From: Streptomyces sp. NBC_00878
Lineage (GTDB): Bacteria > Actinomycetota > Actinomycetes > Streptomycetales > Streptomycetaceae
NCBI RefSeq assembly: GCF_026341515.1
Contig: NZ_JAPEOK010000001.1
Location: forward strand, 6,200,001 to 6,264,000
Length of the DNA stretch: 64,000 bases
Direction: 5' to 3'
Positions within the stretch are counted from its first letter, which is position 1, and every line of letters begins with the position of its first letter. The notes under the pieces are model-generated. The model was not told the origin of the DNA. It saw only the letters and a program-made list of their open reading frames with translations, and searched no databases. The translations under genes were made by a program, and so were the position numbers. This document shows, piece after piece, positions 8,419-56,903 of the stretch.

Positions 8419-9838
8419 GCGCCGCCGGCCACGGCTCCGGCTGCCGCGTCCGAGTACGGTACGGCCGCGTACAGTACGGGCCCGTACGACCGTCGCCGTC
8501 ACCTTCGTGCTCGGGATCGCGCTGGCCGCCGGTGCCGCCGTCCTGCTCGCGGTCGTACGCGGTGACCTGTTGGACACCGCCCGCCAGGCGGCACAAGAAA
8601 AGTCCCTGACCGCGGTGGATCTGCTCTACCAGGCGGAGCCGGAGGGCGAGTACGCCATCGCCGCGAACGGGCAGGTCGACGTGGTCGAATTCGCGCAGTA
8701 CGCCCAGATGGAACCGAACCCGATGCAAACGGAGAAGGAGGTCATCTCCACGGACTCTTCCGATTTCGCCCGAGCGATGTCGGCGGACGGCCGCTACCGG
8801 GTCCAGTCGGAGGTCGACTTCACCGCGGCCCAGGACACCCTGGACAGCATGCTCGCCCTGATGATCCCCGGCGTCCTGCTGATCGTCCTGCTCGGTGCCC
8901 TGCTCACCTGGTCGGCGGTGGGCCGGGCGCTGGCCCCGGTCGAGGCCGTCCGCCGAGAGGCCGCCGAGATCACCGCGACCGATCTTCACCGCAGACTCCC
9001 GGTCCCGCCCGGCCGGGACGAGATCGCGGGCCTGACCAGTACCTTGAACGCCACCCTGGACCGCCTGGAGCGCGCGGTGGCACGGCTGCGGACCTTTACC
9101 GGAGACGTCTCGCACGAACTGCGCAGCCCACTCACCACCCTGCGTACCCGGCTGGAACTCGCCCTGGCCCGCCCCGAGCGCACCGACTGGCCCGAGGTCG
9201 TCACCGAAGCGCTCCAGGACACGGACCAACTCCAGGACCTGGTCACGGACTTGCTGCTGCTGGCCCGTCTCGACGCGCACCAGCCCGCACACGACCGCCA
9301 GGTCGACCTCGTCGCACTCGCCGCGCTCGTCTGCGAACGCGCCGAACAGACCGGCGCCGTACCGCCGTTGGAGATCACCGCCCCGCAGTCCGCGCCGGTG
9401 TTCGGCAACCCCGCCCACCTGACCCGCCTGCTCACCAACCTCGTCGACAACGCCCGCCGCCACGCGACGACGACCGTCCATGTCCGTGTCGCCGTCGACG
9501 CCACCGACGTACTCGTGGAAGTGACGGACGACGGCGCCGGCATCCCGCCCGAGGACCGTGAGCGCGTCTTCGGCCGCTTCAACCGCCTTGACGACGCCCG
9601 CACTCGCGAAGACGGCGGCACCGGCCTCGGCCTGGCCATAGCCCGCGCCATCGCCACCACCCACGACGGCACCCTCACCGCGGAAGAACCCACCGAACCC
9701 CTCAACGGGGCCCGCCTGATCCTGCGTGTCCCCGGCATCTCCACCGCCTCGGCCGTCCCCACAGCCCGGTCGCGGCGCTCGAAAACGAAACGCGAGCCGA
9801 CGCGGCCCAGGGTCATCAGCGCGAGCGCGAAGGGGTGA
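8411..9838 (+). CDS. Sensor histidine kinase
   Basis: A 475-residue membrane kinase. ATG 8411 is chosen because it overlaps the regulator's TGA. Topology: a basic N-terminus, TM1 (about 25-55), an extracytoplasmic sensor of about 100 residues, and TM2 ('LALMIPGVLLIVLLGALLTW'). HAMP follows, then the DHp helix with His235 in 'DVSHELRSPLTTLRT', and a HATPase domain with N box 'NLVDNARRH', 'DDGAGIPPEDRE' and 'GTGLGLAIA'. The extreme 3' end contains a 14-bp tandem duplication (9823-9851) spanning the stop. The sensed signal is unknown. Confidence 0.93.
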   Translation: MAERRRPRLRLPRPSTVRPRTVRARTTVAVTFVLGIALAAGAAVLLAVVRGDLLDTARQAAQEKSLTAVDLLYQAEPEGEYAIAANGQVDVVEFAQYAQMEPNPMQTEKEVISTDSSDFARAMSADGRYRVQSEVDFTAAQDTLDSMLALMIPGVLLIVLLGALLTWSAVGRALAPVEAVRREAAEITATDLHRRLPVPPGRDEIAGLTSTLNATLDRLERAVARLRTFTGDVSHELRSPLTTLRTRLELALARPERTDWPEVVTEALQDTDQLQDLVTDLLLLARLDAHQPAHDRQVDLVALAALVCERAEQTGAVPPLEITAPQSAPVFGNPAHLTRLLTNLVDNARRHATTTVHVRVAVDATDVLVEVTDDGAGIPPEDRERVFGRFNRLDDARTREDGGTGLGLAIARAIATTHDGTLTAEEPTEPLNGARLILRVPGISTASAVPTARSRRSKTKREPTRPRVISASAKG

Positions 9839-10110
9839 GCGCGAAGGGGGTGAGCCCCTGAGAGTGCCCCTGGTCCGCAAGTGGCCGAGATCAGTCCGGC
9901 GGTACGACGGTGATGACCACGTTCCCGGCCCTCTGCCCGATCGCGCCGCACGCTTTCGTACCGCTACCCCGGTGATCAATCTCTCCGGCGTTCGAGGAGC
10001 AGGGGCGATGAAAAGCAGTTTTCGTGGATGCGGGCAGACCTGGGAGAATGGGGCGGTCAGCCGTGCGAACCGTACCGCCGGCCAAAGACACCTCCTGAGG
10101 AAAGAAGGAC

Positions 10111-38254: not shown

Positions 38255-38794
38255 TCAGCGGCTGGCGCGGATCATCACGGTGAGGACCGGCGAGGCCGGT
38301 GACGGCTGGCTCTGCCCGATGTCCTCGTACCCCCATGACTCGTAGAGCGCGTGGACCTTTCCGTCCCCGGCGGCCGGGTTGACCATGAGGGTGACGTACG
38401 GCTCGTCGCGGGTGGCGAGGAGGGCGTCGTGGATGCGGCGGGCGGTGCCGGTCTTCCGCCAGGTTGGTCGGACGCCGATTTCCTTGAGGGCCATGGCCGG
38501 ACGCTCGGTGTACGTGTCTGTCGGCGCCGGGCTGGTGCGCTGCCAGTAGCGGTCGCCGTGCTTGATGGTGTTGCCGTAGGCGTAGCCGACCGGATGCTCG
38601 TCCGCGTACGCCAGGACGGCCACGAACCCCGGCTCGGTGCTGTGTCGGTCCAGGCGCTCGCCGAACGCGGTGACCGCATAGTTCGGCAGGTGGAGGAGCG
38701 GGGCGCGCGCGTCGGCGTACACGTCGAGGAGGTCCCCTCGGACAGTGTCGAGGGTGGTGAACGTTCGCAGGTCGATCGTGGGCGCCGTGGTCAT
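38255..38794 (-). CDS. GNAT-family N-acetyltransferase
   Basis: A 179-residue acetyltransferase with strand 'PGFVAVLAYADEHPVGYAYG', the CoA-binding region 'LKEIGVRPTWRKTGTARRIH' (degenerate Q/RxxGxG/A) and 'VHALYESWGYEDIGQ'. The start ATG overlaps the stop of the upstream XRE regulator (ATGA), so they form one transcription unit. The same pairing occurs, as I recall, with other Streptomyces XRE regulators; the target is unknown. Confidence 0.88.
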   Translation of the reverse strand: MTTAPTIDLRTFTTLDTVRGDLLDVYADARAPLLHLPNYAVTAFGERLDRHSTEPGFVAVLAYADEHPVGYAYGNTIKHGDRYWQRTSPAPTDTYTERPAMALKEIGVRPTWRKTGTARRIHDALLATRDEPYVTLMVNPAAGDGKVHALYESWGYEDIGQSQPSPASPVLTVMIRASR

Positions 38795-40077
38795 GCGGCC
38801 GTCCTCCATGTGGCTGCGTGCTCGGTCCAGGTCTGGACGGTCGTGCTGCCGGACGCGGTGGCGCGCAGTGCCGCCCCGAACTCTTGCAACATGCGTGCCA
38901 CCCGGGCGTGTTGGGTGGCGGCGTCGGTGGGGACCTTCATCGCGGTGGCCGTGGCGGCGTCGGCGGCACCCTGCGCGAGCTGGGCGTGGGCGAGCCGGGT
39001 CGTTGCGATGGCCCGGGACCGGATCATGTGAGGTCGGAGGGCGGACAGGCAGCGATGGGCGTGGTACTCGGCGGTCGAGTAGTCGCCGAGTGCCAAGTAC
39101 CCCGACAGCGCCAAGGAGTCCAGCTCGGCCTGGTCGTAGAAGGCCAGCAGCCACACCGGCCGGTAGTCGGCGGGGTCGGCTCGCAGCATGGCGTCCTGCG
39201 CGTGCTCGAACGCCCGGCGGGTGCTGGTGTGGTCCTGCGCCGCGCCGTGAATGGCCCCCTGCCTGGCCAGGCCGAGGGAAGCGAACAGAGAGTCACGGCG
39301 TGCGAGGTGCAGGTTGCGGGCGACGTCGTTCGCGGCGAACGCGTCGGCAGGGCGGCCCATATGCCGGTACATGGTTCCCGCGTGACTCCAGATGCGGAAC
39401 TTGATCGCCTGATCGCCGGACATCTCGGCGAGGGCCTGGGCCTCACGCATGTGCGCCTTGGCGATGTCGTAGCGCCGGCCGTCGATGGCGGCCCACATCG
39501 CCGAGGAGCGGAACGCCGCTGCGGAGGCGTAGAGGCTGCTGCGTACGCGCTGGGTGGCACTGCCCGCGTTCTGGAGGTTCAGGGTCTCGTCGGCCAGCGC
39601 GGCGGCCCGCTGCTCGATGCCGAGTTGGCCGCCGTGGCGGTGGTCGCTGGCGATGATCTCGGCGAAGCGCTTCTGTAGACGGTCGACGTCGCTCATGCCG
39701 ATACGTCGAGGCGAAGCGGTGCCGGGAGCAGCGGCTGCTGCTGCGGCAGCCGCCGCGATCCCGCCGACGAGGGTACGGCGCTTCAAGTCAGGGTCCTCCT
39801 GCTGCGGTGGGGCTGGGGTGGCCGGAGTCCGACCCCGTGGCACGAACCCTAGAGCGATGGCGGGCAGGCCGCTGACGTCCTCAAGTGCCTTACGGGTAGC
39901 CGATTTGGGCCACGTGACCCGGCCTGCCTTCCAGCCCCGGACCGATGAGCCGTCGAGACCGCCAGGCCGCCCGGTCAGCTCACCTAAAGCCCTGTTCACA
40001 GCGTCAGCAAGGCTGTTGGAGCTGTAGCCGTGCTCAGCCATCCACGCCTCAAGGACGGTGTTACGCGTGGTGTCCAT
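38791..40077 (-). CDS. XRE-type regulator with helical-repeat domain
   Basis: A 428-residue protein. The N-terminal HTH-like part (about 1-75) has 'AWMAEHGYSSNSLADAVNRA' and 'SSVRGWKAGRVTWPKS'. An Ala-rich segment (about 108-128) follows, then TPR-like helical repeats ('AAAFRSSAMWAAIDGRRYDI', 'AYRPVW'-type helices). This resembles signal-peptide-binding regulators of Streptomyces. ATG 40077 is chosen; GTG 40107 would add ten residues. It is divergent from the lanthipeptide-associated ATPase and is the best candidate cluster regulator. Confidence 0.85.
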   Translation of the reverse strand: MDTTRNTVLEAWMAEHGYSSNSLADAVNRALGELTGRPGGLDGSSVRGWKAGRVTWPKSATRKALEDVSGLPAIALGFVPRGRTPATPAPPQQEDPDLKRRTLVGGIAAAAAAAAAAPGTASPRRIGMSDVDRLQKRFAEIIASDHRHGGQLGIEQRAAALADETLNLQNAGSATQRVRSSLYASAAAFRSSAMWAAIDGRRYDIAKAHMREAQALAEMSGDQAIKFRIWSHAGTMYRHMGRPADAFAANDVARNLHLARRDSLFASLGLARQGAIHGAAQDHTSTRRAFEHAQDAMLRADPADYRPVWLLAFYDQAELDSLALSGYLALGDYSTAEYHAHRCLSALRPHMIRSRAIATTRLAHAQLAQGAADAATATAMKVPTDAATQHARVARMLQEFGAALRATASGSTTVQTWTEHAATWRTAA

Positions 40078-40105
40078 CTGTGCACGGTAGCCCTCGCTCC
40101 CCCTC

Positions 40106-40116
40106 ACCTGCCAGGT
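40106..40116. promoter_or_regulatory. ACCTGCCAGGT palindrome near the XRE gene start
   Basis: ACCTG-C-CAGGT, 29 bases upstream of the XRE ATG; a possible autoregulatory site. Short, so chance is possible. Confidence 0.3.
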
Positions 40117-40318
40117 AAAGGAGGGGGCAAATCACCCTAGGTCGGCCTGTCGGAGAGATACCCGATCGCCCTAACCAGCTTGCGGTGAAAGGGAGTTGTC
40201 TGGGTGCTGGTCGCCCGTCACACCCCTCTGTACGGACGGCTGTTGACGGCCCGGTCTGCCCCTGAAGTCCCCCGATGGGGCGGGTCGGGCGCCGAGACGA
40301 AACGAAGGCTCTACCCCA

Positions 40319-40765
40319 ATGACGAGTCTCAGTACGGCAGTTCAGGCCGCATCCGTCGGTCACCCCGCCTATAGCCAAACCTTCCCGTGCGAGCCGTCCA
40401 CGGCCGAGCCCGGCCGCAAGCTCGTCCGGGACGTCCTCGGCATATGGCACCTCGACGACCTCGCCGACCACGCCGCGTTGATCGTCACAGAGCTGATCGC
40501 GAACGCCGCCAGGCACACTCCGTGCCGCTCGATCCGCCTGATTGTCGGGCGACCGAGCGCGGAACGGGTACGCGTCGGGGTCGTGGACCGGGAACCGTCA
40601 CGCGTCCCGGCTCTCAGCCAGGCCGACGCCGATGACGAGTCAGGTCGCGGACTGCTCCTCATCGACGCAGTCGCCGACCGTTGGGGCTATGACCTGCACG
40701 GCTCGGACAGGCGCCCATGGGGCAAAGAGGTCTGGGCCGAGATTCGCGTCAAGGACGACGAGTGA
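40319..40765 (+). CDS. RsbW-like ATP-binding protein
   Basis: A 148-residue HATPase_c_2 protein like anti-sigma kinases: N box 'VTELIANAARHT', D/G region 'VGVVDREPSRVP' and 'DDESGRGLLLIDAVADRWGY'. Streptomyces has many such orphan ATPases near XRE/DUF397 or RiPP genes. It probably acts as a small regulatory protein; kinase activity is not assured. The stop overlaps the next ATG (TGATG). Confidence 0.9.
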   Translation: MTSLSTAVQAASVGHPAYSQTFPCEPSTAEPGRKLVRDVLGIWHLDDLADHAALIVTELIANAARHTPCRSIRLIVGRPSAERVRVGVVDREPSRVPALSQADADDESGRGLLLIDAVADRWGYDLHGSDRRPWGKEVWAEIRVKDDE

Positions 40766-40974
40766 TGACTCCCGTCACGGTGCACCCGCCCCTCCCTGAC
40801 GTCGCCCGCCTCCGGCCGCGCCAGCAGATGGCCATGGACTGCGCCCTCTGCACCCGCCCGCTGGGAGCGAGGGGCCGGGTGCTGGGTGAGGTGCGCCACG
40901 GGGGCCTGCCATTTCGGCTCTGGGCCTGCATACCCGACTGCCAGGCGGCCAGATCGGCCATCCCGAACACCTAG
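40765..40974 (+). CDS. Small Cys-containing protein of the lanthipeptide locus
   Basis: A 69-residue protein coupled by TGATG to the ATPase gene. 'MDCALCTRPLGARGRV' and 'LWACIPDCQAA' give two Cys pairs that could bind zinc. I recognise no family. Its place between regulator-type genes and the precursor gene suggests it belongs to the same operon. Confidence 0.65.
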   Translation: MTPVTVHPPLPDVARLRPRQQMAMDCALCTRPLGARGRVLGEVRHGGLPFRLWACIPDCQAARSAIPNT

Positions 40975-41164
40975 CAAGCCGGTACACGACTTCCCGGCAC
41001 GAGGCATGCAGCCCATGACGACTTGCTCCGTGGATCGCGTCACCTTGTGCCGGGTGGCCAGGAGCCGGTCGGGGAGCCTGCCGCCTGGCAGCGCTCCGCG
41101 TGATGGCGCCTGAGGACGGCACCACTGCACAGCAAATCCCACCAAGCATGAGGAGTTGGTACGC

Positions 41165-41344
41165 ATGACACGCAGCACCGTAGTTCCCAGCCGCACCCAG
41201 GCGCGCCCGCAGACCCCGGAAGCATCGGACGGCTTCGACCTGGACGTCTCGCTCGTCGAGATCGCCGACCCGGCAGGCCTGGTCAACCTGACCGACGACA
41301 ACTGCGGCACCACCTGCGGCGCCTGTACCACCAACGTCGCCTGA
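41165..41344 (+). CDS. lanA: FxLD-family class I lanthipeptide precursor
   Basis: A 59-residue precursor. The leader has the FxLD motif (Phe24-Asp-Leu-Asp27, 'GFDLDVSLVEI') that gives the family its name and probably binds LanB. The core region, roughly from 'NLTDDNCGTT' to 'CGACTTNVA', holds Thr43, 49, 50, 55, 56 and Cys47, 51, 54 but no Ser, so only methyllanthionine and dehydrobutyrine are possible. Asp44-Asp45 is the probable methyltransferase site. GAGGAG lies nine bases before ATG 41165. LanB, LanC and the methyltransferase follow in order. Confidence 0.92.
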   Translation: MTRSTVVPSRTQARPQTPEASDGFDLDVSLVEIADPAGLVNLTDDNCGTTCGACTTNVA

Positions 41345-41432
41345 CCCGGACCTCAGGTCACCCCGGTCTGGTGTCGTCGCGCCCCCGTGCGGCGACACCA
41401 GCCGCTCATCCCCTCGCCCTACGGAGGTAGTG

Positions 41433-44400
41433 GTGGTTACTCAGCCTGCGTTCCGAACCGGCTCTACCGCTCTCGTGCGCGCCGTGGCCCGGCCGTCGCT
41501 GCTGGTTCCTCCGCTCCCTGACCTCAGTGATCGCTCGCCCAGCGGTTCGGCGGAGTGTGCGGCGTGGCTGCGCGCGGTCTGGGCGAACGAGGACGCTGCC
41601 GAGGCGCTGCAACACTCCAGCACGGTCCTGTCCGCGCAAGTTCGGGCCCTGTGCAAGGCCGAGCGACCTCCCCAGCGGGACGTCCGGCGCGCAGGTCAGT
41701 CCGTAGCCCGCTACCTGCTGCGGGCCCAGCACCGGGCAACGCCCTTCGGCCTGTTCGCCGGTGTGACCACTACGGCGTTCGGACCGCAGGCGCGTGCAGG
41801 CTGGGGCACGGAGCACGTGGCCGTCGGCCGTGCGGGGGCAGAGTGGTTGGCCGCCGTGGTCGAGCGGTTGGAGTCGTGCCCGGACCTTCTCGAACGGCTG
41901 CCCGTCGTCCTCAACAACACCGTGACGAGCCGGGGAGACCGGCTTGTCGTGCCCTTCCAGTCCGAGGCCCAGGACCGTGGAACCCGTGCGGTCGAGGCGT
42001 CCCTGGCCTTGACCGAACCATTGCGCGCGGTCCTCGCCGCGACGCGGGCGCCGATGCGCGTCGGCGCGCTTGCTGACAAGCTTCGAGCGGAGTTCCCCGC
42101 AGCCGAGCCGGAGAAGGTGCGTCGTCTACTGGGGGAGCTGATCCGGCGGCGGGTGCTGATCACGAGCCTGCACGCACCGAGCACCGAGACCGACGCCCTC
42201 GGGTATCTGCTCGACCAGCTCGACGCGATCGACGCCGGAACCCTCACCCCCGTCGCGGAGACGGTGCGCGAACTGCGCGCAGTCCGGGCAGGCCTGAAGG
42301 CGTGCTCCACACGCGGCGGCCGGGACCGCGTCGCGGCACAGATGCGAGCCCTCGTACCCGGCCTGCGCCGCCACCCCGTCGCGCTCGATCTGCGCCTGGA
42401 CGCGCAGATTGTTCTGCCGGACGAGGTAGCCCGCGAGATCGAGCGTGCCGCCCTCATCCTGACCCGGCTGACCACCCGCCCGTACGGGACCGCCGCGTGG
42501 GGCGAGTACCACCAGTGGTTCTACGAGCGATACGGCATCGGCACGATGGTGCCGCTCCGGGAGGTCCTTGCGGACAGTGGCACCGGCTATCCCGACGGCT
42601 ACCCAGGCACTCCGGCCAGCCCGCCTCGGCCTCGCGTCTCCGCTCGGGACGACGCCCTCGTACGGCTGGCGCAAGCCGCCGCGCTCGACGGCCGCGAAGA
42701 GGTGGTCCTCTCCGACGAACTGGTTGCGGCCCTGGCTGTCGGGCCCGACGAGCCTCGGGTGCCGCCGCACTTGGAGGTGGGACTGCGGGTGTACGCGGTC
42801 GGCCTGGAGGAGTTGCAGCGCGGGGAGTTCCGGTTGGAGGTCGTGAGCGTGTCCCGTGGTGCCGGTGTCTCCACGGGCCGGTTCCTCAGTGTGCTGGCTC
42901 CCGGCGACCGCGAGGCTCTGGCGGCGGAGTTGGCCGATCTTCCGGTCGCCGACAGCGACACCGTCCCCGCGCAGCTCTCTTTCCCGCCCATGCTCCCCGA
43001 GAGTGCTCACGTCACCCGCGCCCCGCAAGTTCTGCCCACCGTGATCAGCCTCCAGGAGCACCGCACCCCGGCGGACGCCGGCCTCACTCCGGGGGACTTG
43101 GCGGTGGGGTGTGATGGCAGGCGTATGTACCTGGCAGCCCCCGAGCGCGGTCACCGCGTCGAGGCCGTCGGCATGCACGCGCTGAATCTGCACACCCACA
43201 CACCGCCGTTGGTACGGTTCCTCACCGAACTGTCCCGCGCCCAGTGCGCGCAGGTCACCGCGTTCGACTGGGGCGTTGCGGCGGCGATGCCGTTCCTTCC
43301 ACGCCTGCGGTACGGGCGCACGGTGCTGACCCCGGCACGCTGGCGGCTGGAGGCGCCCGAACTGCCCAGCCGCGCACGCCCTCGCGCCGAGTGGGACGCC
43401 GCCCTCACCGACTGGCAGGCTCGGCGACGGCTGCCGCGCCGAGTCCACCTCGTCGAGGACGACCGGCGCCTCTTCCTCGACCTCGACGAGGCCGGCCACC
43501 GGACGCTACTGCGCCGACACCTCGACCGTACGCGCCTGGCCGTACTCGTTGAGGCTCCCGGACCGGAAGCGTACGGCTGGTGCGGCGGGCGAGCTCACGA
43601 GGTCGTGGTCCCCCTCAAAGCGACCCGGCCGCCGGAGTGGCCGCCCCTGCCGATCCCCACCCCGGCCCGTGCCCTCTCTCCGGCACAGATCCAGACGCCC
43701 GCCGCTTCCTCAGTGCTTCTGGCCGCGCTGTATGGAGACCCTCGCCGTCAAGACGTCCTGCTCTCACGGCACTTGCCCGGGCTCCTCGATCAACTCGGCA
43801 ACCCGCCGTGGTGGTTCATCCGCTTCCGCGACCCGGACCAGCACCTTCGGGTACGTATCGCTCTCCCAGGCCCTGACGCCTTCGCCGAGGCGGCCCGTAC
43901 GGTGAGTGCGTGGGCCGACGAGCTGCGCAGCGTCGGCCTGTTGGCCGATCTGCGGTACCCCACCTCCTACCGGGAGATGGGCCGCTGGGGCTCCGGCGCC
44001 GCATGGGAGGCGGCCGAGGCCGTGTTCCGGGCGGACTCGCGCGCAATCCTGGCCCAGCTTGCGCAGCCGCAGCGTCCCGACCAGCGAACGTTGGTGGCGG
44101 CCCATACCGTCGCCATCGCCTCCGCGTTCCTAGGCAGCACCGAAGCCGCGATGCGGTGGCTGGTCGACCACGTTCCGCCGAAAGCCCCGATGCGCGTTCC
44201 ACGTCCGCTGTTCACCGAGGCCGTACGGCTCGCCGACCCCTGCGACGACTGGGCGGCGCTGCGCCACGTCTTCCCGGGCGGAAACATCATCGTGGAGGGA
44301 TGGGCAGACCGGGATACGGCACTCGCTGCGTACCGGCCACACCTCCCGGGCCCGGACACCCAGGGCATCGCCCTCGACGACGTCCTGACCTCCCTCCTGC

Positions 44401-44516
44401 ACGTCCACTTCGTACGGCACGTCGCCGTGAACTTCCCTGAGGAAGAGGTGTGCCTCTACCTGGCACGTGCAGCCGCCCTGGCGTGGACCGCCCGTACCAC
44501 CGGGAGGACTTCATGA
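41433..44516 (+). CDS. lanB: Lantibiotic dehydratase, full length
   Basis: A roughly 1027-residue class I LanB. The N-terminal glutamylation domain (about 1-690) dehydrates Thr through Glu-tRNA ester intermediates ('RYLLRAQHRATPFGLFAGV', 'WGEYHQWFYERYG'). The C-terminal elimination domain (about 740-1020, SpaB_C/thiopeptide-type) has 'NPPWWFIRFRDPDQHLRVRI' and 'RYPTSYREMGRWG'. GTG 41433 is preferred because GGAGG sits five bases upstream; GTG 41430 would leave two. It overlaps lanC by ATGA. Confidence 0.95.
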   Translation: MVTQPAFRTGSTALVRAVARPSLLVPPLPDLSDRSPSGSAECAAWLRAVWANEDAAEALQHSSTVLSAQVRALCKAERPPQRDVRRAGQSVARYLLRAQHRATPFGLFAGVTTTAFGPQARAGWGTEHVAVGRAGAEWLAAVVERLESCPDLLERLPVVLNNTVTSRGDRLVVPFQSEAQDRGTRAVEASLALTEPLRAVLAATRAPMRVGALADKLRAEFPAAEPEKVRRLLGELIRRRVLITSLHAPSTETDALGYLLDQLDAIDAGTLTPVAETVRELRAVRAGLKACSTRGGRDRVAAQMRALVPGLRRHPVALDLRLDAQIVLPDEVAREIERAALILTRLTTRPYGTAAWGEYHQWFYERYGIGTMVPLREVLADSGTGYPDGYPGTPASPPRPRVSARDDALVRLAQAAALDGREEVVLSDELVAALAVGPDEPRVPPHLEVGLRVYAVGLEELQRGEFRLEVVSVSRGAGVSTGRFLSVLAPGDREALAAELADLPVADSDTVPAQLSFPPMLPESAHVTRAPQVLPTVISLQEHRTPADAGLTPGDLAVGCDGRRMYLAAPERGHRVEAVGMHALNLHTHTPPLVRFLTELSRAQCAQVTAFDWGVAAAMPFLPRLRYGRTVLTPARWRLEAPELPSRARPRAEWDAALTDWQARRRLPRRVHLVEDDRRLFLDLDEAGHRTLLRRHLDRTRLAVLVEAPGPEAYGWCGGRAHEVVVPLKATRPPEWPPLPIPTPARALSPAQIQTPAASSVLLAALYGDPRRQDVLLSRHLPGLLDQLGNPPWWFIRFRDPDQHLRVRIALPGPDAFAEAARTVSAWADELRSVGLLADLRYPTSYREMGRWGSGAAWEAAEAVFRADSRAILAQLAQPQRPDQRTLVAAHTVAIASAFLGSTEAAMRWLVDHVPPKAPMRVPRPLFTEAVRLADPCDDWAALRHVFPGGNIIVEGWADRDTALAAYRPHLPGPDTQGIALDDVLTSLLHVHFVRHVAVNFPEEEVCLYLARAAALAWTARTTGRTS

Positions 44517-45790
44517 CTGCTCACCGCGGGCTCGGCCTGGTCGATGCCATTGCCTCCCAACTCGCCCACCCCGGCAAGGCGTTCCTCGGGCCTCGGGTGG
44601 CGTCCTCGCGTCGACAGCACCTCGCCTACGGCCCTCCCGGCATCGCGCTCCTGCACATCGAGCTGGCCGCAAACGGCCTGGGACCGTGGCAGCGCGCCCA
44701 CGACTGGCTCGCCGCCGCCTCCCGCGAACCGTTCACCAGCGGCCCCGACAGCCACCCCTTCTACGGGGCACCAGCCTTCGCCCACGCCCTGGCCTGTGCC
44801 GCCGACTATCTACCCGGCTCCTACCACCGCGCCCTGAACACGATGGACCGACAAATCGAGGCCGATGCCGCGCGCCGTCTCGACGCCGCACACCGCCGGA
44901 TCGATGCCGGACGCCTGACGCAGCTCGCCGAGTTCGACACCATCCGGGGCCTCGCCGGTTACGGTGCCTACCTCCTACGCCGTAACTCCGGTAGCCCCAC
45001 GATGCGTTCTGTCCTCGACTACTGCGTACGCCTCACCGAACCGATCAACCATCACGGCGAGACCCTGCCGGGCTGGTGGACGGAGACGGACCCCTCGGGC
45101 ATCCCGGACGACGCTCGTTTCCCCGGCGGGCACGCCAACACCGGCATGGCGCACGGTGTCGGCGGCGTGCTCGCGATCCTCGCCCTCGCCGCCCGCGACG
45201 GCACTCTCGTCGAAGGACACCACTCAGCGGTGCGCACCATCCTGGCCTGGTTGGACCGTTGGCAGGAGGAGACCGGTCACGGGCCGACCTGGCCGTACTG
45301 GGTCACTCGAAGCGAGCTGCGTACCGGTCACCTCGCCCCGTCCGCGCCCCGGCGGCCCTCCTGGTGCTACGGCACTGCCGGCCTCGCCCGCGCCCAGCAA
45401 CTTGCCGCGCTCGCCGTCGGCGACACCGGCCGCCAGATCGACGCGGAGAAGGCGCTCGTGGCCGCCGTCACCGATCCCGACCAGCTGGAAGCCACGACGG
45501 ACAACGGTCTGTGCCACGGCTTCGTCGGCCTCGCCCACGTCGCCGCTCGTACGGCCGACGACGCCCACCCCTCGACCGTGGGCCAACTCCGCGCCGCGAT
45601 CCCGGCACTCCTGGCTGCGGTCCACCCACCAGGCACCGACCCCGAAGGTGCCGCCATGGCGCTCATTCGAGACGAGGAGCGGGGCCCAGGCCTGCTCGAC
45701 GGCGCGGCCGGTGTCGCTCTGTCCCTAATCGCGCCCAGCACCGCCGCACCGCCCCGGTCCGCCTGGGACACCTGCCTGCTCATCGCCTGA
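44513..45790 (+). CDS. lanC: Lanthionine cyclase, LanC-like
   Basis: A 425-residue LanC that adds Cys thiols to dehydrobutyrine to close methyllanthionine rings. Zinc ligands are intact: Cys285 in 'SWCYGTAGLA', Cys334-His335 in 'LCHGFVGLAH'. Catalytic-site His in 'GMAHGVGGVLAIL'. Length is normal. ATG 44513 overlaps the lanB stop; the methyltransferase gene follows after 24 bp. Confidence 0.95.
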   Translation: MTAHRGLGLVDAIASQLAHPGKAFLGPRVASSRRQHLAYGPPGIALLHIELAANGLGPWQRAHDWLAAASREPFTSGPDSHPFYGAPAFAHALACAADYLPGSYHRALNTMDRQIEADAARRLDAAHRRIDAGRLTQLAEFDTIRGLAGYGAYLLRRNSGSPTMRSVLDYCVRLTEPINHHGETLPGWWTETDPSGIPDDARFPGGHANTGMAHGVGGVLAILALAARDGTLVEGHHSAVRTILAWLDRWQEETGHGPTWPYWVTRSELRTGHLAPSAPRRPSWCYGTAGLARAQQLAALAVGDTGRQIDAEKALVAAVTDPDQLEATTDNGLCHGFVGLAHVAARTADDAHPSTVGQLRAAIPALLAAVHPPGTDPEGAAMALIRDEERGPGLLDGAAGVALSLIAPSTAAPPRSAWDTCLLIA

Positions 45791-45814
45791 TCCGCCGACC
45801 GAAGGAACCCCCTC

Positions 45815-47902
45815 ATGCCCCCTGACCGCTGGCAGCAGCACAACATCACCTTCGTCGACCGCGAGAGCGCCCGGCGCGTCATCGTCGAACGCCTCGGCCC
45901 CGCCCTGATCGCGGCCGAGGCCGACGGGCAGCTCGCTGGCTGGTGGTTCATGAACAAGCAGCCCTGGCCGCTGCGTTACCTCGCCGACCAGCCCTCACCG
46001 GCCCTGGAGACGTTGCTGAGCGATCTCATCGGTGACGGTGAAGCCGTGTCGTGGTTGCCCGGCGTCTACGAGCCCGAGGTCGAAACCTTCGGCGGCCCGG
46101 AGGCCATGGACGCCGCCCACGAACTGTTCCACAGCGACTCCCGCCATCTACTTGCCTACCGGCCGAACCCGGAGCACCTGGGACGCCGGGAGAGCGCCGT
46201 TCTGCTGGCGAGCGCCATGATGCGCGGCGCCGGACTGGACTGGTTCGAGCAGGGCGACGTATGGGCGAAGGTCGCTGCCCTGCGGCCGGCCCCCACCCCG
46301 CTACCGCCCGAACGAGCCGCCGAACTCGCCCCAGTGACACGGACGTTGATGACCGCCGATGCCCACGGCCTCTGCCGCCCGGACGGCCCGCTTCACGGGC
46401 ATGACGAGTGGGTGGCCGCCTTCGAACGGGCGGGAGCCACGCTCGCTGACCTCGCAGGCCGTGGCGCCCTCAGTCGCGGCCTGCGAGCCGTCATCGCCCA
46501 CCACGTGATCTTCCACGCCAACCGCGCCGGTCTCCTCCAGGACGACCAGAGCGCCCTGTCCCACATCGCACGAGAGGTAGTCATGGGAACGAGTGACAAC
46601 ACCGCGTCGCCCGACGAGGCAACGGCCGACGCCGATAGCGTCGACGCGGTGAACACCGACACAACCACCACCGCCACCGCCACGGCGGACGCCGAGCGCC
46701 TCCGCAACGCCCTGGTCGACCAGCTTCGTGCGGACGGGCACGCCCGCACACCCGCCGTCGAGACCGCGTTGCGGACAGTGCCCCGCCACGTGTTCGTGCC
46801 CGAAGCGTCACTCGAAGACGCGTACGCCAACGCACCGGTGCACATCAAGTACGACACCGACGGCACGTCGATCTCCTGCGCTTCCCAGCCGGGCGTCGTC
46901 GCACTCATGCTGGACCAGCTTGACGTCCGGCCCGGCGGGCGCATCCTCGAACTCGGCGCCGGTACCGGCTACAACGCCGGTCTCCTCGCCCAACTGGTCG
47001 GCGAGAGCGGACACGTGACCACCCTCGACGTCGACGACGACCTCGTGGAAGGTGCCAGCGCCAACCTCGCCGCCGCCGGTATCACCAACGTCGAGGCCGT
47101 GACCCGCGATGGGGCTGTCGGCTACGTCGAAGGCGCACCGTACAACCGGATCATCGCCACCGTGGGCGCGCACGGCGTGCCGCACGCCTGGCTGCAACAG
47201 CTCGCCCCTGGCGGCCGACTGCTCGTCCCCCAGCGCCTCAAAGGCACCGTCTCCCGCTCCATCGCGTACGAGCAGCGCGACGGGCGATGGGTGTCCCTCG
47301 GCAGCGAGATGAACACCTTCATGCCGCTGCGGCGGGGCATCGCCGACGACGAGCGCCGAGTCGTCCCGCTCAGCTCGGACGGCACCGTACGACTCCAGGC
47401 CCCCGCCGGGCAGTACATCGATGCCCACGCCCTCGCTGGTGTCTTGGACCAGCCGCGCACCGAGGAGTGGACCGGCATGACGGTCCAGGCCATGGAGTCG
47501 CCGGAGTGGATGGAACTGTTCCTCACCTGCTCCCTCCCCTCCGGCCTGATCCGGATGCTGTTCCCCCAGAGCGCCAAGGGCGGTCTGCTCACGGCCGACC
47601 CCTACCCTTCATCGAGCGCGGCCGTAGACAAGGGCGCCGTCACCTACCTGGCACGGCGCCCGTCGGCGGAGAAGACCCCCGAGGGCGGCAAGCTCTGGGA
47701 GTTCGGCGTCATCGGCCACGGCCCCGGCAGCGACGAGTTGGCCGCGAAGGTCGCCGACGCGATCCGCACCTGGGACCGGGAGTACCGCGACGGCGAGGCC
47801 ACGTTCGAGATCCAGCCCCTCGACGCCCCCGCCATCGAGCCGCGCCCAAGCCTCTTCGCTCTCGACACCCCACTGAACCGCATCGTCGTCGACTGGCGAT
47901 GA
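45815..47902 (+). CDS. Fused elimination-type domain and FxLD-system isoaspartate methyltransferase
   Basis: A 695-residue two-part protein. Residues about 1-255 match the thiopeptide-type bacteriocin (SpaB_C-like) domain ('HNITFVDRESARRVIVERL', 'AGWWFMNKQPWPLRYL'). A Thr/Ala/Asp linker follows (about 257-290). Residues about 290-695 are a protein-isoaspartate O-methyltransferase-like enzyme with 'VPRHVFVPEASLEDAYAN', 'SISCASQPGVVALML', SAM loop 'ILELGAGTGYNAG' and a long C-terminal extension. In related class I loci the enzyme methylates a core Asp to give succinimide or isoAsp. The two parts, as I recall, are usually separate genes. An internal start with ribosome site exists (46572-46585). 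Confidence 0.9.
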   Translation: MPPDRWQQHNITFVDRESARRVIVERLGPALIAAEADGQLAGWWFMNKQPWPLRYLADQPSPALETLLSDLIGDGEAVSWLPGVYEPEVETFGGPEAMDAAHELFHSDSRHLLAYRPNPEHLGRRESAVLLASAMMRGAGLDWFEQGDVWAKVAALRPAPTPLPPERAAELAPVTRTLMTADAHGLCRPDGPLHGHDEWVAAFERAGATLADLAGRGALSRGLRAVIAHHVIFHANRAGLLQDDQSALSHIAREVVMGTSDNTASPDEATADADSVDAVNTDTTTTATATADAERLRNALVDQLRADGHARTPAVETALRTVPRHVFVPEASLEDAYANAPVHIKYDTDGTSISCASQPGVVALMLDQLDVRPGGRILELGAGTGYNAGLLAQLVGESGHVTTLDVDDDLVEGASANLAAAGITNVEAVTRDGAVGYVEGAPYNRIIATVGAHGVPHAWLQQLAPGGRLLVPQRLKGTVSRSIAYEQRDGRWVSLGSEMNTFMPLRRGIADDERRVVPLSSDGTVRLQAPAGQYIDAHALAGVLDQPRTEEWTGMTVQAMESPEWMELFLTCSLPSGLIRMLFPQSAKGGLLTADPYPSSSAAVDKGAVTYLARRPSAEKTPEGGKLWEFGVIGHGPGSDELAAKVADAIRTWDREYRDGEATFEIQPLDAPAIEPRPSLFALDTPLNRIVVDWR
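46572..46585 (+). promoter_or_regulatory. Internal ribosome site and start in the fused methyltransferase
   Basis: GAGAGG five bases before an in-frame ATG (46583), exactly at the junction of the elimination-type domain and the linker. It could yield a free methyltransferase of about 439 residues besides the fusion. Confidence 0.45.
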
Positions 47903-47989
47903 CGGCCGACGTGTAGCGGACGGTGCCCGTCGGCGTACGGCTGGCGGGCGTCGTCGCCTCAGCAGTTCTCGATCAGGCCAGGGGGACTC

Positions 47990-49135
47990 ATGGACCCGCA
48001 CGGACCCATAGCCCAGCGCTTCCCGCTCGTCGCCCGATTCCGGCCCGCCTGCCTGCCCCTGCCTGAGCGCATACGCGCGCTCGCCGACCTCGCCGACACC
48101 GCAATGAAGAAAACCGACCCAGGGCTCGCATCGGCCGTCTACAACCAGGCCGCGCTCATCGCCTCAGACCTCGGACTCCCCGCCCTCGCACGCGAGATGT
48201 GCCACCAGCACGCCGCCGCCTACCTCCACGCCTGCCCCCTGCCCGCCATGAGCGCGATCCGAGGGCTGGAACCGGTCGTCAACCTCGCCCGCCTCCAGAT
48301 CCGCGCCGGCCACGGAGACGAGGGCCGTCGGCGACTCCTCAACCTGTACGAGGCCGTCGAGGCTGCCACAGCTGCTCGGTTCGAGGACATTGCGGTACCG
48401 GCGGACCTCACTGAGACCGACGAGGACCGCCACGAGGTCCGCGCGTGGCTGTGGCGCGTACTCCTCGCTGACGGTACGCGCACCCTCACCACGGAGGGAC
48501 GTTGGGCCGAGGCCCTGACACACATCGAAGCTCATCACGGCGTAGGCAAACGGATGCTCGACGGGCGCCAAGTCGCCGTACTCGCCGCCCTCGTCACGGG
48601 TGATACGGCACAAGCCACTGCTCTCCTCGTCGACACCATGCCCGGCGATCCGTGGGAGCAAGCCGTCACGGCATGCCTGACCGTTCTGAGCCGCCGCGAT
48701 GCCGGGCAGCCGGTTGGTGGCCGGCTGGCGGACCTGGTGACGACGTACTCCGAGTGGAAGACCGAACCCGGGATGACCGTCTTCGACATCCGACTCGGAC
48801 TCACCGTTCTCGACGCGATCGGTTCCGCCGAGGCGCCCGCCGCGCACCGCATCGTCGAGGAACTGCACCGCAGGACGACGGAGGCCGAAGACGGCTACGC
48901 GGCCCGCGAGAATCTGGTGCATCCTCTGTTCACCGCGATCGCCACGGCCGGGCAGGCACAGGACTGCCGCGCACTGGTGCGTGCCTGCGCCCTTCGGGCA
49001 GGGACCATCCCGGACAGACTGCAAGCAGACCTGACGGCGGCTCTGCGTGCCGGCGACAGCGTGATCAGGGAAAGCCTTCCCGGCCCGTTCACCGCGCCAC
49101 AGTCGCGAGCACATCGTTGCCCAGGCGTTGGATGA
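47990..49135 (+). CDS. Helical-repeat protein of the lanthipeptide locus
   Basis: A 381-residue, largely alpha-helical protein with TPR-like character ('LASAVYNQAALIASDLGLP', 'NLARLQIRAGHGDEGRRRLL'). No catalytic motif, signal peptide or membrane span is visible. ATG 47990 has AGGGGG upstream. Similar proteins accompany other Streptomyces RiPP loci, but I cannot name a function. The last 47 bases overlap the 3' end of the convergent ArsR-type gene. Confidence 0.75.
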   Translation: MDPHGPIAQRFPLVARFRPACLPLPERIRALADLADTAMKKTDPGLASAVYNQAALIASDLGLPALAREMCHQHAAAYLHACPLPAMSAIRGLEPVVNLARLQIRAGHGDEGRRRLLNLYEAVEAATAARFEDIAVPADLTETDEDRHEVRAWLWRVLLADGTRTLTTEGRWAEALTHIEAHHGVGKRMLDGRQVAVLAALVTGDTAQATALLVDTMPGDPWEQAVTACLTVLSRRDAGQPVGGRLADLVTTYSEWKTEPGMTVFDIRLGLTVLDAIGSAEAPAAHRIVEELHRRTTEAEDGYAARENLVHPLFTAIATAGQAQDCRALVRACALRAGTIPDRLQADLTAALRAGDSVIRESLPGPFTAPQSRAHRCPGVG

Positions 49136-50235: not shown

Positions 50236-51810
50236 TCACCGTACGGGGGCGCCCGGGCCGAGTGGGATGCCCAGCAGGTACCAGACGAAGAACAGCAGTA
50301 CCCAGACCGCCAGCATGATCATGGCGAGGGGCAGGGTGAACGAGACCAGGGTGCCGATGCCGGCCTTGCGGCGGAGGGTCTGGAGATAGCCGACACAGAG
50401 CATGAAGGAGGTGCTCATGGGGGTGATGGAGTTCGTGCAGGAATCGGCGATGCGGTACAGGGCCATGGTGGTCGCCGGGCTGGTGCCGAGCAGCATCAGC
50501 ATCGGCACCAGGGCCGGGGCGACCAGGGCCCACAGGGCGGAGCCGGAGGTGATGAGGAGGTTCATCAGCGCGACCGCGACGATGAGGAGGGAGAAAAGCG
50601 CCAGCGTGGGCGCGCCCAGCCGCTTGAGGAAGTCCGCGCCTTCGACCGCGACGACCGTGGCGATGTTGGTCCACTTGAAAAGGGCGAGGAACTGCGACAC
50701 GGCGAAGAACAGCACCAGCAGCGGCGCGATGGAGCGCACCCCCTCCGCCATGAACTCCGGTATCGCGCGGCTCCCGCTGATCCGCCCGGTGAGCCGCCCG
50801 TACACGGCGCCGATGAGCAGGAAGAAGACGGTGAGGAAGACGGCGATGGCGTTCATGAACGTGGACTCCACGATCGCGCCCCCCTCACCGCGCAACGGGG
50901 ACGCGGCGGGCAGCATCGCGAGCACGATCAGCGCGGCGTAGCCGAGCACGGCAAGACCGGTCGCCCGCAGGGCCCGTACCTCGGTGGTGTCGTCGACCTC
51001 GGCGGCGACGACCCGCGCCGCAGCGGCGGCCTCCAGGTCCGCGTCGGGGGTCAGGTGGTGCTCGCGCCTGGCGAGGATCCTGTCCACGACCAGGGCGATG
51101 GTGCCGGCCAGTACGAACGCCGAGACGGTGGTGAAGTACATGTTGTCCGTCGCGCGGACCACCACGTCCTTGTCGACGAGTTGCGCGGCCTCGGTGGCCA
51201 CGGACGCGAACAGCGCGTCGCCGGGGGCGATCAGCGGGTTGGCGTCCCCGGCGGCGTTGATGGACACGAACGCGACGATCATGCCGAGCATGGGGGAGCG
51301 GCCCACGGCGCGGAAGGCCACCGCTCCGAGCGGGATGAGGACCACGTACGCGGAGTCGGACAGGAACTTCCCCAGTACGCCGCCCAGGGCCACGCCCAGG
51401 ACGACCGCGCGCGGGGACAGGCCCGACAGCATGCGGCGGGCCAGCGCCTCGAAGAGTCCCGACCGCTCGGCGACCGCGACGCCGAGCATCACCATCAGTA
51501 CGGTGCCGAGCGGGCCGAAGGTGACGAAGGACTCCTCGGCGCCGGTGATCAGGTCCCGTACGGCGTCCGCCGACAGGGCGCTGCGGACTCCCACCAGGTC
51601 ACCCGAGGAGGGGTCCTCGACGCGCAGGCCGGCGGCGTTCAGGATCCAGCTGACGCAGGCGACCACTCCGCCCAGGATCCAGAACAGCCAGAACGGGTGC
51701 GGCAGTGCGTTTCCCGCCCGCTCGACCAGGTCGAGGAGCCGGGAGCCACGGCCTCCCTCGTCGGGCTCGGTGACCTGCACCTCCTGGGTGCGGTTGTCAG
51801 GTGTGCTCAT
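50236..51810 (-). CDS. AbgT-family transporter
   Basis: A 524-residue membrane transporter with the AbgT signature 'NALPHPFWLFWILGGVVACV', 'GVAVAERSGLFEALARRML', 'ITSGSALWALVAPALVPML' and about 11 spans. AbgT imports p-aminobenzoyl-glutamate in Escherichia coli, while MtrF/YdaH relatives export sulfonamides. ATG 51810 is preceded by GGAGG at five bases. A paralogue with about the same length lies at 55335-56903. Confidence 0.93.
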   Translation of the reverse strand: MSTPDNRTQEVQVTEPDEGGRGSRLLDLVERAGNALPHPFWLFWILGGVVACVSWILNAAGLRVEDPSSGDLVGVRSALSADAVRDLITGAEESFVTFGPLGTVLMVMLGVAVAERSGLFEALARRMLSGLSPRAVVLGVALGGVLGKFLSDSAYVVLIPLGAVAFRAVGRSPMLGMIVAFVSINAAGDANPLIAPGDALFASVATEAAQLVDKDVVVRATDNMYFTTVSAFVLAGTIALVVDRILARREHHLTPDADLEAAAAARVVAAEVDDTTEVRALRATGLAVLGYAALIVLAMLPAASPLRGEGGAIVESTFMNAIAVFLTVFFLLIGAVYGRLTGRISGSRAIPEFMAEGVRSIAPLLVLFFAVSQFLALFKWTNIATVVAVEGADFLKRLGAPTLALFSLLIVAVALMNLLITSGSALWALVAPALVPMLMLLGTSPATTMALYRIADSCTNSITPMSTSFMLCVGYLQTLRRKAGIGTLVSFTLPLAMIMLAVWVLLFFVWYLLGIPLGPGAPVR

Positions 51811-51845
51811 GGCGGCCTCCTGAGGGGACGGCGGAACGAGGGACG

Positions 51846-51892
51846 GTGGAAGGAAGGAGACGGTGGAAGGAAGTGGAAGGAAGTGGAAGGAA
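51846..51892. repeat. 10-bp repeats GTGGAAGGAA
   Basis: Four copies (51846, 51863, 51873, 51883), the last three in perfect tandem. They lie in the 319-bp region between the divergent AbgT and CocE genes, which otherwise shows no gene. Confidence 0.85.
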
Positions 51893-52129
51893 GGGGACAG
51901 CGGAACGAGGGCACGGCGCGGCGGAGTGGCGAGCGCTGCGCTGTGTGGAAAAGGAGGACCCGGGAAACGAGCGGCCATCCGTCGTCTCGGCACGCGGGGA
52001 GTTGCCGGGTGTTGCCGGGATGCGCTGACAGTAGGTCCCGTGTCCGGTTCCGTCACCGTCCGGCGGAACAGTTGACCTGATGACGTCAAGTGATCGCCAT
52101 GATCCGGGCCACTGCCTAGCGTCACGGAG

Positions 52130-55219: not shown

Positions 55220-55334
55220 AGTGCCCCACCCTAGACTGCCGATTAATCCCACTGTTACATCCAGGGGCTATTGAATCTCTCATCCGAGTGCCATTGTTCG
55301 CAGGAACATCCCTCAAATGCGCGAAGGGGTACCG

Positions 55335-56903
55335 ATGAGTGCCACCTCTGCCCAGCCACAGCCGACGGGGCCCGAGTCGACTGAGCCCCAGTCCAGAGCC
55401 CTGCGTACCGCGTTCCGGGGTTTCGCGGCGATCGAGAAGATCGGCAACAAACTGCCCGACCCGTTCTGGCTGTTCTGGATCCTCGCGGGGGCCGTCGCCG
55501 TCCTCAGCGCCGTGCTGTCGGCGGTCGGCGTCAGCGCCGTGCACCCCGGTACGCACGAGGCCATCGAGGTGGAGAACCTGCTCAGCAGGGACGGCCTCAC
55601 CATGGCCGTCGAGGGCGCCGTCGAGAACTTCGCGGCCTTCCCTCCGCTGGCCACCATCCTCACCGTGATGTTCGGCATCGCCGTCGCCGAGCGGAGCGGA
55701 CTGTTCTCGGCGATGCTGCGCCGGATGGTCGCGCGGGTGCCGGGCAAGTACCTGACCTTCGCCCTGTCGATGACGGCCATGGTCAGCCATGTCGCCGGTG
55801 ACGCCGCCTACGTCACCCTCATCCCGCTCGGCGCACTGATCTTCCGTGCGGCGGGCCGCAGTCCGGTGCTCGGCTGCATCGTGGCGTACGTCTCGATCTC
55901 CGCGGGCTACGACGCCTCCCCGTCGCTCACGACGACCGACGTGCTGCTGTCCGGGATCTCCACCGCCGCGGCCCACACCATCGACGCGGACTACGTGGTC
56001 ACCCCGGTGGCCAACTACTTCTTCGGGCTCGGCTCGTCGGTCCTCGTGGCCCTGGTGATCACGCTCGTCGTCGACAAGGTCCTCGCCCGCCGTTCCGACC
56101 TGGAGCCCGACGAGCCGGTCGCCGCGCTGAACGCCGACGAACTGGAGGCGATCGAGGTCACCGGGGACCAGCGCCGCGCGCTGCGCGTGACCGGGCTGGT
56201 CGCCCTCGGCTTCATCGCGCTCCTGGCGGTGGCCATGATCCCCGCGTCCTCACCGCTGCGCGGCGCGGGCGGCGGCATCGTCGACTCCCCGCTGATCGGC
56301 GGGATGGCGCTCGTCCTGGGCGTGTTCTTCGCCGTACTCGGCACGGTCTACGGACGGATGACCGGGACGTTCTCCGCCGCCCGCGACGTCATCGCCGCGA
56401 TGGTCGACGGCACCCGCTCGATGGCGCCGATCCTCGTCCTGTTCTTCGCGATCTCCCAGTTCCTCGCCTACTTCAAGTGGACGAACATCGGCAACATCCT
56501 CGCCGTCAAAGGCGCGGAGATGCTGCGCGACCTGGACATGGACGGCTGGACCGTGCTGGTCGGCATCGCCGTGCTGATCACGTTCATGAACCTCGTCATC
56601 ACCAGCGGCTCCGCGCTGTGGGCGCTGGCCGCGCCGGTACTGGTGCCCATGCTGATGCTCGTCGGCATCGACCCCGAGACCACCCAGGCCGTCTACCGCG
56701 TCGCCGACTCCGTCACCAACTGCGTCACCCCGATGAGCCCGTACTTCGTGATGGCGCTGGGCTTCATCCAGCAGTACCGCAAGTCCGCAGGCATCGGCAC
56801 CCTGGCCTCCTTCACGATCCCGATCGCCGCCGTCCTCTGGTTCGTCTGGGTCGCGTTCTTCGTGGCCTGGTACCTGCTGGGCATCCCGTTCGGCATCGGC
56901 TGA
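55335..56903 (+). CDS. AbgT-family transporter
   Basis: A 522-residue paralogue of the transporter at 50236-51810: 'NKLPDPFWLFWILAGAVAVL', 'GIAVAERSGLFSAMLRRMV', 'ITSGSALWALAAPVLVPML'. ATG 55335 follows AAGGGG at five bases. An M20 peptidase gene follows after 57 bp. Transport of p-aminobenzoyl-glutamate-like or other N-acyl amino acids followed by cleavage is a reasonable model. Confidence 0.93.
   Translation: MSATSAQPQPTGPESTEPQSRALRTAFRGFAAIEKIGNKLPDPFWLFWILAGAVAVLSAVLSAVGVSAVHPGTHEAIEVENLLSRDGLTMAVEGAVENFAAFPPLATILTVMFGIAVAERSGLFSAMLRRMVARVPGKYLTFALSMTAMVSHVAGDAAYVTLIPLGALIFRAAGRSPVLGCIVAYVSISAGYDASPSLTTTDVLLSGISTAAAHTIDADYVVTPVANYFFGLGSSVLVALVITLVVDKVLARRSDLEPDEPVAALNADELEAIEVTGDQRRALRVTGLVALGFIALLAVAMIPASSPLRGAGGGIVDSPLIGGMALVLGVFFAVLGTVYGRMTGTFSAARDVIAAMVDGTRSMAPILVLFFAISQFLAYFKWTNIGNILAVKGAEMLRDLDMDGWTVLVGIAVLITFMNLVITSGSALWALAAPVLVPMLMLVGIDPETTQAVYRVADSVTNCVTPMSPYFVMALGFIQQYRKSAGIGTLASFTIPIAAVLWFVWVAFFVAWYLLGIPFGIG

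Follow-up and report, generated by a model that had tools for sequence, protein, structure and literature searches.

The question raised by this locus is which kind of lanthipeptide it encodes and which enzymes would shape the product. It lies in a 64,000-nucleotide stretch of Streptomyces sp. NBC_00878 (contig NZ_JAPEOK010000001.1, positions 6,200,001 to 6,264,000; the whole stretch is called the window), in a genome of 11.1 Mb in which a single FxLD precursor and a single FxLD methyltransferase exceed the cut-off. The original prediction, made from the letters of the window, described a class I lanthipeptide locus with regulators, a 59-residue precursor with an FDLD leader motif, LanB, LanC and a methyltransferase resembling protein isoaspartate methyltransferase (PIMT). 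Our analysis indicates that this is probably a class I cluster of the coi type, with a predicted syn-lyase next to an anti-lyase, three predicted rings and predicted methylation of Asp45. The coi cluster is that of S. coelicolor A3(2) (CoiA1, CoiB, CoiC, CoiSA and CoiH; PMC9486935, PMC9011353); what we say of published systems follows excerpts of the papers cited.

Every gene named in the original prediction, the two regulators included, matched its family profile above cut-off or with a high score (Table 1). The ATGA overlap that couples lanB and lanC was confirmed at 44513-44516, and the zinc ligands of LanC are intact as claimed, being conserved in 75/75 aligned LanCs (at least 380 aa). To place these genes we used 80 related loci, nearly all from Streptomyces, which were recruited via the methyltransferase and of which some contigs end early. 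The methyltransferase was present in 80/80 (the recruitment criterion), LanB in 76/80, LanC in 78/80 and the precursor in 68/80, a co-occurrence far beyond chance. Among 73 LanBs of at least 900 aa (77 were found), the anti-lyase residues R807, R809 and E849 were each kept in 71/73 and R852 and H991 in 73/73, and R98/R102 are conserved as well. NisB column numbers were taken from the alignment, except for the His, and the roles of the NisB residues in this active-site test are partly assumed from general knowledge. With both LanB domains, the active-site residues and a separate LanC carrying its zinc ligands, the two proteins fit a class I system.

Two features had been left out of the original prediction: the identity of the last gene (47990-49135) and an N-terminal glutamyl lyase in the methyltransferase. 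The N-terminal 260 residues of this protein correspond to a further glutamyl lyase, which carries the Lys characteristic of syn-lyases. We aligned 79 fusions of at least 600 aa (the window and 78 relatives; two shorter fusions were excluded). Lys48, at the position of CoiSA K46, was present in 77/79 (one Gln, one gap), and Arg54 and Glu88 in 79/79. At the NisB R826 column the fusions carry Ala (57), Thr (16, as in the window), Val (5) or Gln (1), never Arg; published syn-lyases are described as having Lys in place of Tyr and a hydrophobic residue instead of Arg at this column. With a glutamyl lyase fused to its methyltransferase beside a full LanB, the locus would be classed as coi-type on its sequence. 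Since the methyltransferase is a lyase fusion like CoiSA, its closest relative is likely the coi cluster and not the olv cluster of Streptomyces olivaceus (OlvA, OlvB, OlvC, OlvSA; via PMC13001092). When the lyase domain was used as query, relatives were found in 102/200 genomes of the taxonomic family, separate and weak matches counted.

In the precursor, the FDLD motif occupies residues 24-27 and the cysteines lie at 47, 51 and 54. Ring assignment was made by homology to CoiA1, whose positions were taken from published numbering and not from a sequence comparison. CoiC is reported to join Cys51 to the (E)-dehydrobutyrine (Dhb) at position 57, and residues 43 and 50 are given as the partners of Cys47 and Cys55, respectively. 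Thr43, Cys47, Thr50 and Cys51 of the window peptide have the same numbers as in CoiA1; then follow Cys54 and Thr56, the gap from the second to the third Cys being shorter by one residue. Thr56 stands at the third Cys plus two, as does CoiA1 Thr57. The matching numbers and the shorter gap therefore point to predicted rings Thr43-Cys47, Thr50-Cys54 and Cys51-Thr56, all methyllanthionine (MeLan). Conservation, counted position by position over 67 loci (the window among them), fits residue 56 (Thr 66, Ser 1) as ring partner, and not residue 55 (Thr 64, Val 3) or the variable residue 49 (Ser 41, Thr 16, Glu 10). The third ring, formed from (E)-Dhb, should be D-allo-L-MeLan. We infer ring pattern, stereochemistry and isoaspartate (isoAsp) by homology to coi and olv; gene content, domains, active-site residues and conservation come from the sequences themselves. 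In one related locus (L068, 5333-5512), Asn replaces the first-ring Thr43 (LNDDNC), and ring A could not form there.

The same 67 loci bear on the methylation site. Asp45, in the motif TxDxC, is present in 67/67; Asp44 is found in 63/67, with Asn in the other four, and Asp45 precedes Asn in 48 loci and Gly in the remaining 19. Because Asp45 is invariant, whereas Asp44 is replaced by Asn in 4/67, Asp45 is the likely methylation site, and this residue, within ring A, is predicted to become the isoAsp. A PIMT homologue with a C-terminal extension and a conserved core Asp in TxDxC would also place the locus, by sequence, among the lanthimiditides. For the family, both MeLan rings and the modification of a core Asp by a PIMT homologue have been described (PMC7268733, PMC13001092). 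The product proposed in the original prediction thus stands, by family membership, as far as class I, MeLan rings and the core Asp as substrate are concerned; the second lyase and the predicted allo-MeLan ring had been missed.

The proposed pathway would begin with LanB, which would bind the FDLD leader motif and glutamylate core Thr residues from Glu-tRNA. Its C-terminal lyase would eliminate Glu in anti fashion at Thr43 and Thr50 to give (Z)-Dhb, and the fused lyase would do so in syn fashion at Thr56 to give (E)-Dhb. LanC would then add Cys47 to Dhb43, Cys54 to Dhb50 and Cys51 to Dhb56, closing a first ring and, towards the C-terminus, two rings that overlap, the final one being D-allo-L-MeLan. 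Finally, the methyltransferase domain would methylate Asp45 in ring A, which would lead to an aspartimide and isoAsp.

We also analysed a second set of 80 regions around FxLD precursors, fetched from Streptomyces genomes (drawn from the 114 of 392 genomes with a match; five regions duplicate loci of the first set). These regions end about 8.5 kb downstream, so gene absences may be under-called. By domain content, 26 had a full LanB with the fusion, 12 a lyase-less LanB with the fusion, 33 a full LanB with a separate lyase, six a full LanB with the methyltransferase only, and three were others. The residue at the third Cys plus two was tallied over distinct cores, pooling fetched and earlier loci and ignoring kinship. 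Eleven loci of mixed content, including L170, were tallied apart; one core each of the full-LanB fusion and separate-lyase classes did not fit the pattern and was excluded, and in the separate-lyase class the precursor pattern matched in only 20 loci. Thr was found in 16/17 cores of the full-LanB fusion class (Ser in L053). The separate-lyase class had Ser in 12, Asn in four and Thr in none of 16 cores, and the class without an extra lyase had Ser in 5/6. Thr thus occurred in 1/22 cores of the two non-fusion full-LanB classes, namely in L081. In this locus a deletion (9400-10100) from mid-LanC into the methyltransferase has taken out the syn-lyase, and the leader differs as well; it is probably a decayed cluster that retained its core. 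Thr at the third-ring position appears to track the fused lyase, matching mCoiA1, with a MeLan from Thr57, versus mOlvA, with lanthionine at that place.

The 12 loci with a lyase-less LanB (L124, L125, L128, L131, L133, L136, L137, L140, L141, L142, L144 and L149) form a group of their own. Their LanBs, about 660-720 aa long, contain just the glutamylation domain (that of L125 was read as a longer open reading frame, likewise with no lyase match), the fused lyase is the only lyase found, and the precursors carry CGSSCPSAC. The five distinct cores tallied for this class have Thr (3) or Gly (2) at the third Cys plus two, and its fusions show a third motif form, RKDxGxRLR. Methyltransferase-fused syn-lyases are said in PMC9486935 to accompany a full-length dehydratase; these loci look like an exception to that rule, possibly with (E)-Dhb intermediates only.

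Of the arginine pair that binds the glutamate carboxylate (CoiSA R51 and R53), the window retains the second (R54, 79/79); the first is Pro in 73/79. The window motif reads NKQPW-PLRY, compared to RKxPxWRLR in CoiSA-type lyases. Loci with a Cys-Gly-Ala-Cys core supplied 81 distinct fused lyase domains, and the motif could be scored in 79 of them. Three residues separate the Lys from the residue before Leu-Arg in 79/79, and the latter residue was Pro in 73, Arg in four and Lys in two. In the six coi-type loci that combine a Cys-xxx-Cys core with a full LanB (L130, L145, L146, L150, L170, L181), four residues are followed by Arg. L060 and L079 have a short-form lyase with Pro, and the sole precursor found there belongs to their second cluster: both loci (L060 is the same as L138) hold two adjacent FxLD-type clusters, one with a fused and one with a separate lyase. 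Ring contraction is thus accompanied by a shorter loop and, in most cases, by loss of the first carboxylate-binding Arg, a combination that may reflect co-adaptation or common descent.

Among the six coi-type loci, L145, L146, L150 and L181 have fusion residues Lys46, Arg51, Arg53 and Glu89, L145 and L146 have LanB His994, and the four cores end in TDDGC...CATNVA or CATAVA. The published residues are K46, R51, R53 and E89 in CoiSA and H994 in CoiB (PMC9486935). We took these four loci as coi orthologues because the residue numbers are equal, a choice made on the enzymes and not on a comparison with CoiA1. Identity to L145 was about 58% for the fusion and 45% for LanB, and identity to L146 was 54% for LanC and 41% for the CoiH-like protein. 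Coi and the window share an FxLD-type precursor, full LanB, LanC, a methyltransferase with fused lyase and a Lys at the CoiSA K46 position, Thr43, Cys47, Thr50 and Cys51 in the peptide, a further operon protein, and an operon without a protease. They differ in that coi has three precursors and the window one, in the spacing Cys51-xxx-Cys55 against Cys51-GA-Cys54 in the window, and in the lyase motif given above. Olv shares the class I enzymes and the PIMT homologue, with a conserved core Asp in a MeLan ring as its substrate, but OlvSA has no fused lyase; in olv-like loci the third-ring position is Ser in 5/5 distinct cores (L081 set aside) and the CoiH-like gene occurs in 0/6. The spt system (SapT, SptBb; PMC9011353, PMC9890492) has a syn-glutamyl lyase with the conserved Lys that gives (E)-Dhb and D-allo-L-MeLan, as predicted for the window, but its LanB is split, its precursor is different, and the excerpts name no methyltransferase.

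An olv-like pathway has to be weighed against this reading: the fused lyase would be dead or serve for substrate binding only, LanB would make three (Z)-Dhb residues, and no allo-MeLan would form. The loss of the first carboxylate-binding Arg and the one-residue deletion in the lyase motif would fit such a pathway. We consider it improbable, since the Lys that is essential in CoiSA is kept in 77/79 fusions, seven residues (K48, R54, E88, H229, H230, N236 and R237) are invariant in 38 diverse fusions, and the fused lyase goes together with Thr, not Ser, two residues after the third Cys. Moreover, CoiB without the CoiSA lyase stalls after at most one dehydration (PMC9486935). That the lyase-like domain is a [4+2] cyclase of the pyridine-synthase type and no glutamyl lyase is hardly credible. 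It is also very unlikely that the methyltransferase targets Asp44 or mainly repairs isoAsp instead of installing it. Asp44 is common too, and OlvSA methylates isoAsp as well (PMC13001092), but Asp45 is the invariant residue and takes the Asp position of the TxDGC motif in the literature.

Several observations weigh against the coi-type reading itself. The lyase has one residue fewer than CoiSA between the Lys and the Leu-Arg pair, and Pro52 at the place of CoiSA Arg51. CoiSA R51A retained activity, and neither R51 nor R53 was strictly essential (PMC9486935), but the combination of deletion and Arg-to-Pro change in the window goes beyond this single variant. Ser occupies the third-ring place in L053, which has a fused lyase and a full LanB, and in L170, where both LanB and the fusion are broken. 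The CoiA1 ring positions derive from published numbering only. The methylation step rests on OlvSA, PMC9486935 using only the lyase half of CoiSA as far as its excerpts go. Asp45 precedes Asn in the window instead of the more usual Gly. Residue 136 of the window LanB (41835-41837) is Gly at the column of NisB Asp121, which we take to be an important residue of the glutamylation domain; across the 73 LanBs this column holds Gly (51), Ser (18), Asp (3) or Glu (1).

The operon order is precursor, LanB, LanC, fused methyltransferase and CoiH-like gene, and by Pfam/NCBIfam matches none of the five genes belongs to a protease or transporter family. The 381-aa product of the last gene has, by structure model, a predicted TPR-like fold and is probably CoiH. 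Homologues were found in 26/26 loci with full LanB and fusion (one match, in L138, is a fragment at the region end), 12/12 with lyase-less LanB and fusion, 14/33 with a separate lyase, 0/6 without an extra lyase and 0/3 of the others. In coi-type L130, L145, L146, L150 and L181, loci used here in place of the CoiH sequence itself, the fusion has a homologous TPR-like protein as its neighbour. CoiB and the CoiSA lyase alone gave three dehydrations in E. coli (PMC9486935), so CoiH is dispensable for lyase activity in that host.

Table 1. Genes and domains of the lanthipeptide locus and its flank, in window coordinates (aa, amino acids; ORF, open reading frame).
Feature	Coordinates	Strand	Evidence
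GNAT acetyltransferase	38255-38794	same strand as NsdA-family gene, directly behind it	PF00583 22.3 bits (cut-off 20.7); relatives in 41/80 loci
NsdA-family TPR-like regulatory protein, putative regulator	38791..40107	-	NF053720 263.5 bits (cut-off 75); homologue in 42/80 loci (E 1e-10)
Histidine-kinase-like ATPase (HATPase_c_2), putative anti-sigma-type regulator	40319..40765	+	PF13581 35.8 bits (cut-off 27.4); 43/80 loci (E 1e-10)
69-aa ORF	40765..40974	+	no Pfam/NCBIfam match; relative in 31/81 loci including window
Precursor peptide, 59 aa	41165..41344 (ATG 41165 to stop 41344)	+	TIGR04363 46.1 bits (cut-off 30)
LanB, glutamylation and anti-glutamyl lyase domains	41430..44516	+	PF04738 700 bits; PF14028 115.8 bits
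LanC cyclase	44513..45790	+	PF05147 143 bits; zinc ligands Cys285, Cys334, His335
Fused lyase-methyltransferase, whole ORF	45815-47902	+	TIGR04364 and PF01135 matches in C-terminal half
Putative syn-type glutamyl lyase domain (N-terminal, fusion)	45815..46600	+	Lys48, Arg54, Glu88
PIMT/LanSA-type aspartyl O-methyltransferase domain (C-terminal, fusion)	46691..47899	+	TIGR04364 449.4 bits (cut-off 320; residues 293-694); PF01135 154 bits
CoiH-like protein, 381 aa, predicted all-helical, TPR-like	47990..49135	+	no family match; homologue in 78/80 loci; AlphaFold2 mean pLDDT 90.2

The NsdA-family, ATPase and GNAT genes each recur in roughly every second one of the 80 related loci, which suggests that they are linked to lineage and are not part of the core pathway. 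Eight other neighbouring genes recur in four, one or none of the 80 loci, three of the eight lying mostly beyond the reach of those loci. The window also holds two AbgT-family transporters (50236-52125 and 55317-56903). An S15 peptidase gene separates them and an M20 peptidase gene follows the second; neither the first transporter nor the S15 peptidase had a match in the 80 related loci (0/80).

The core is almost invariant in the 67 loci. The same 18 C-terminal residues were found in 14/80 related loci and in 38/120 proteins listed, many of them named FxLD family lanthipeptide; the form with Ser49 was found in 29 loci and 37 of the listed proteins. Non-synonymous difference per site was 0.08 for the core against 0.45 for the N-terminal leader, but the synonymous rate of the core was low too. 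The claim that this core is undescribed holds in that four substrings of it or of near variants had no match in the literature searched, but the core is not rare. It may well be included in the logo of CoiA1 orthologues built from 301 sequences (PMC9486935), and 1305 lanthipeptide clusters with such an enzyme were counted in PMC10787088. According to PMC9486935, the products of coi and olv had, as of 2022, not been reported from native strains. A near-invariant core argues, weakly, against an arms-race bacteriocin. As a speculation, and a doubtful one, the locus might belong to a large coi-type sub-branch with a rebuilt syn-lyase site (one residue lost, Arg to Pro) and contracted C-terminal rings, whose almost unchanging peptide would serve as a conserved signal or morphogen, sensed by a TPR protein of the CoiH-like or NsdA-family type, and not as a diversifying antibiotic.

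The locus is a further member of the known, laboratory-studied coi-type family, with a sub-branch peculiarity in the lyase that is worth a test: a fused syn-lyase minus one of the two glutamate-binding arginines is a test case for the role of that arginine. The product prediction is corrected, in that an apparently plain PIMT lanthipeptide locus should carry the rare D-allo-L-methyllanthionine. Close relatives of the locus are common in the genus, and with a core nearly unchanged across dozens of species the function of the peptide would be easier to attack by deletion.

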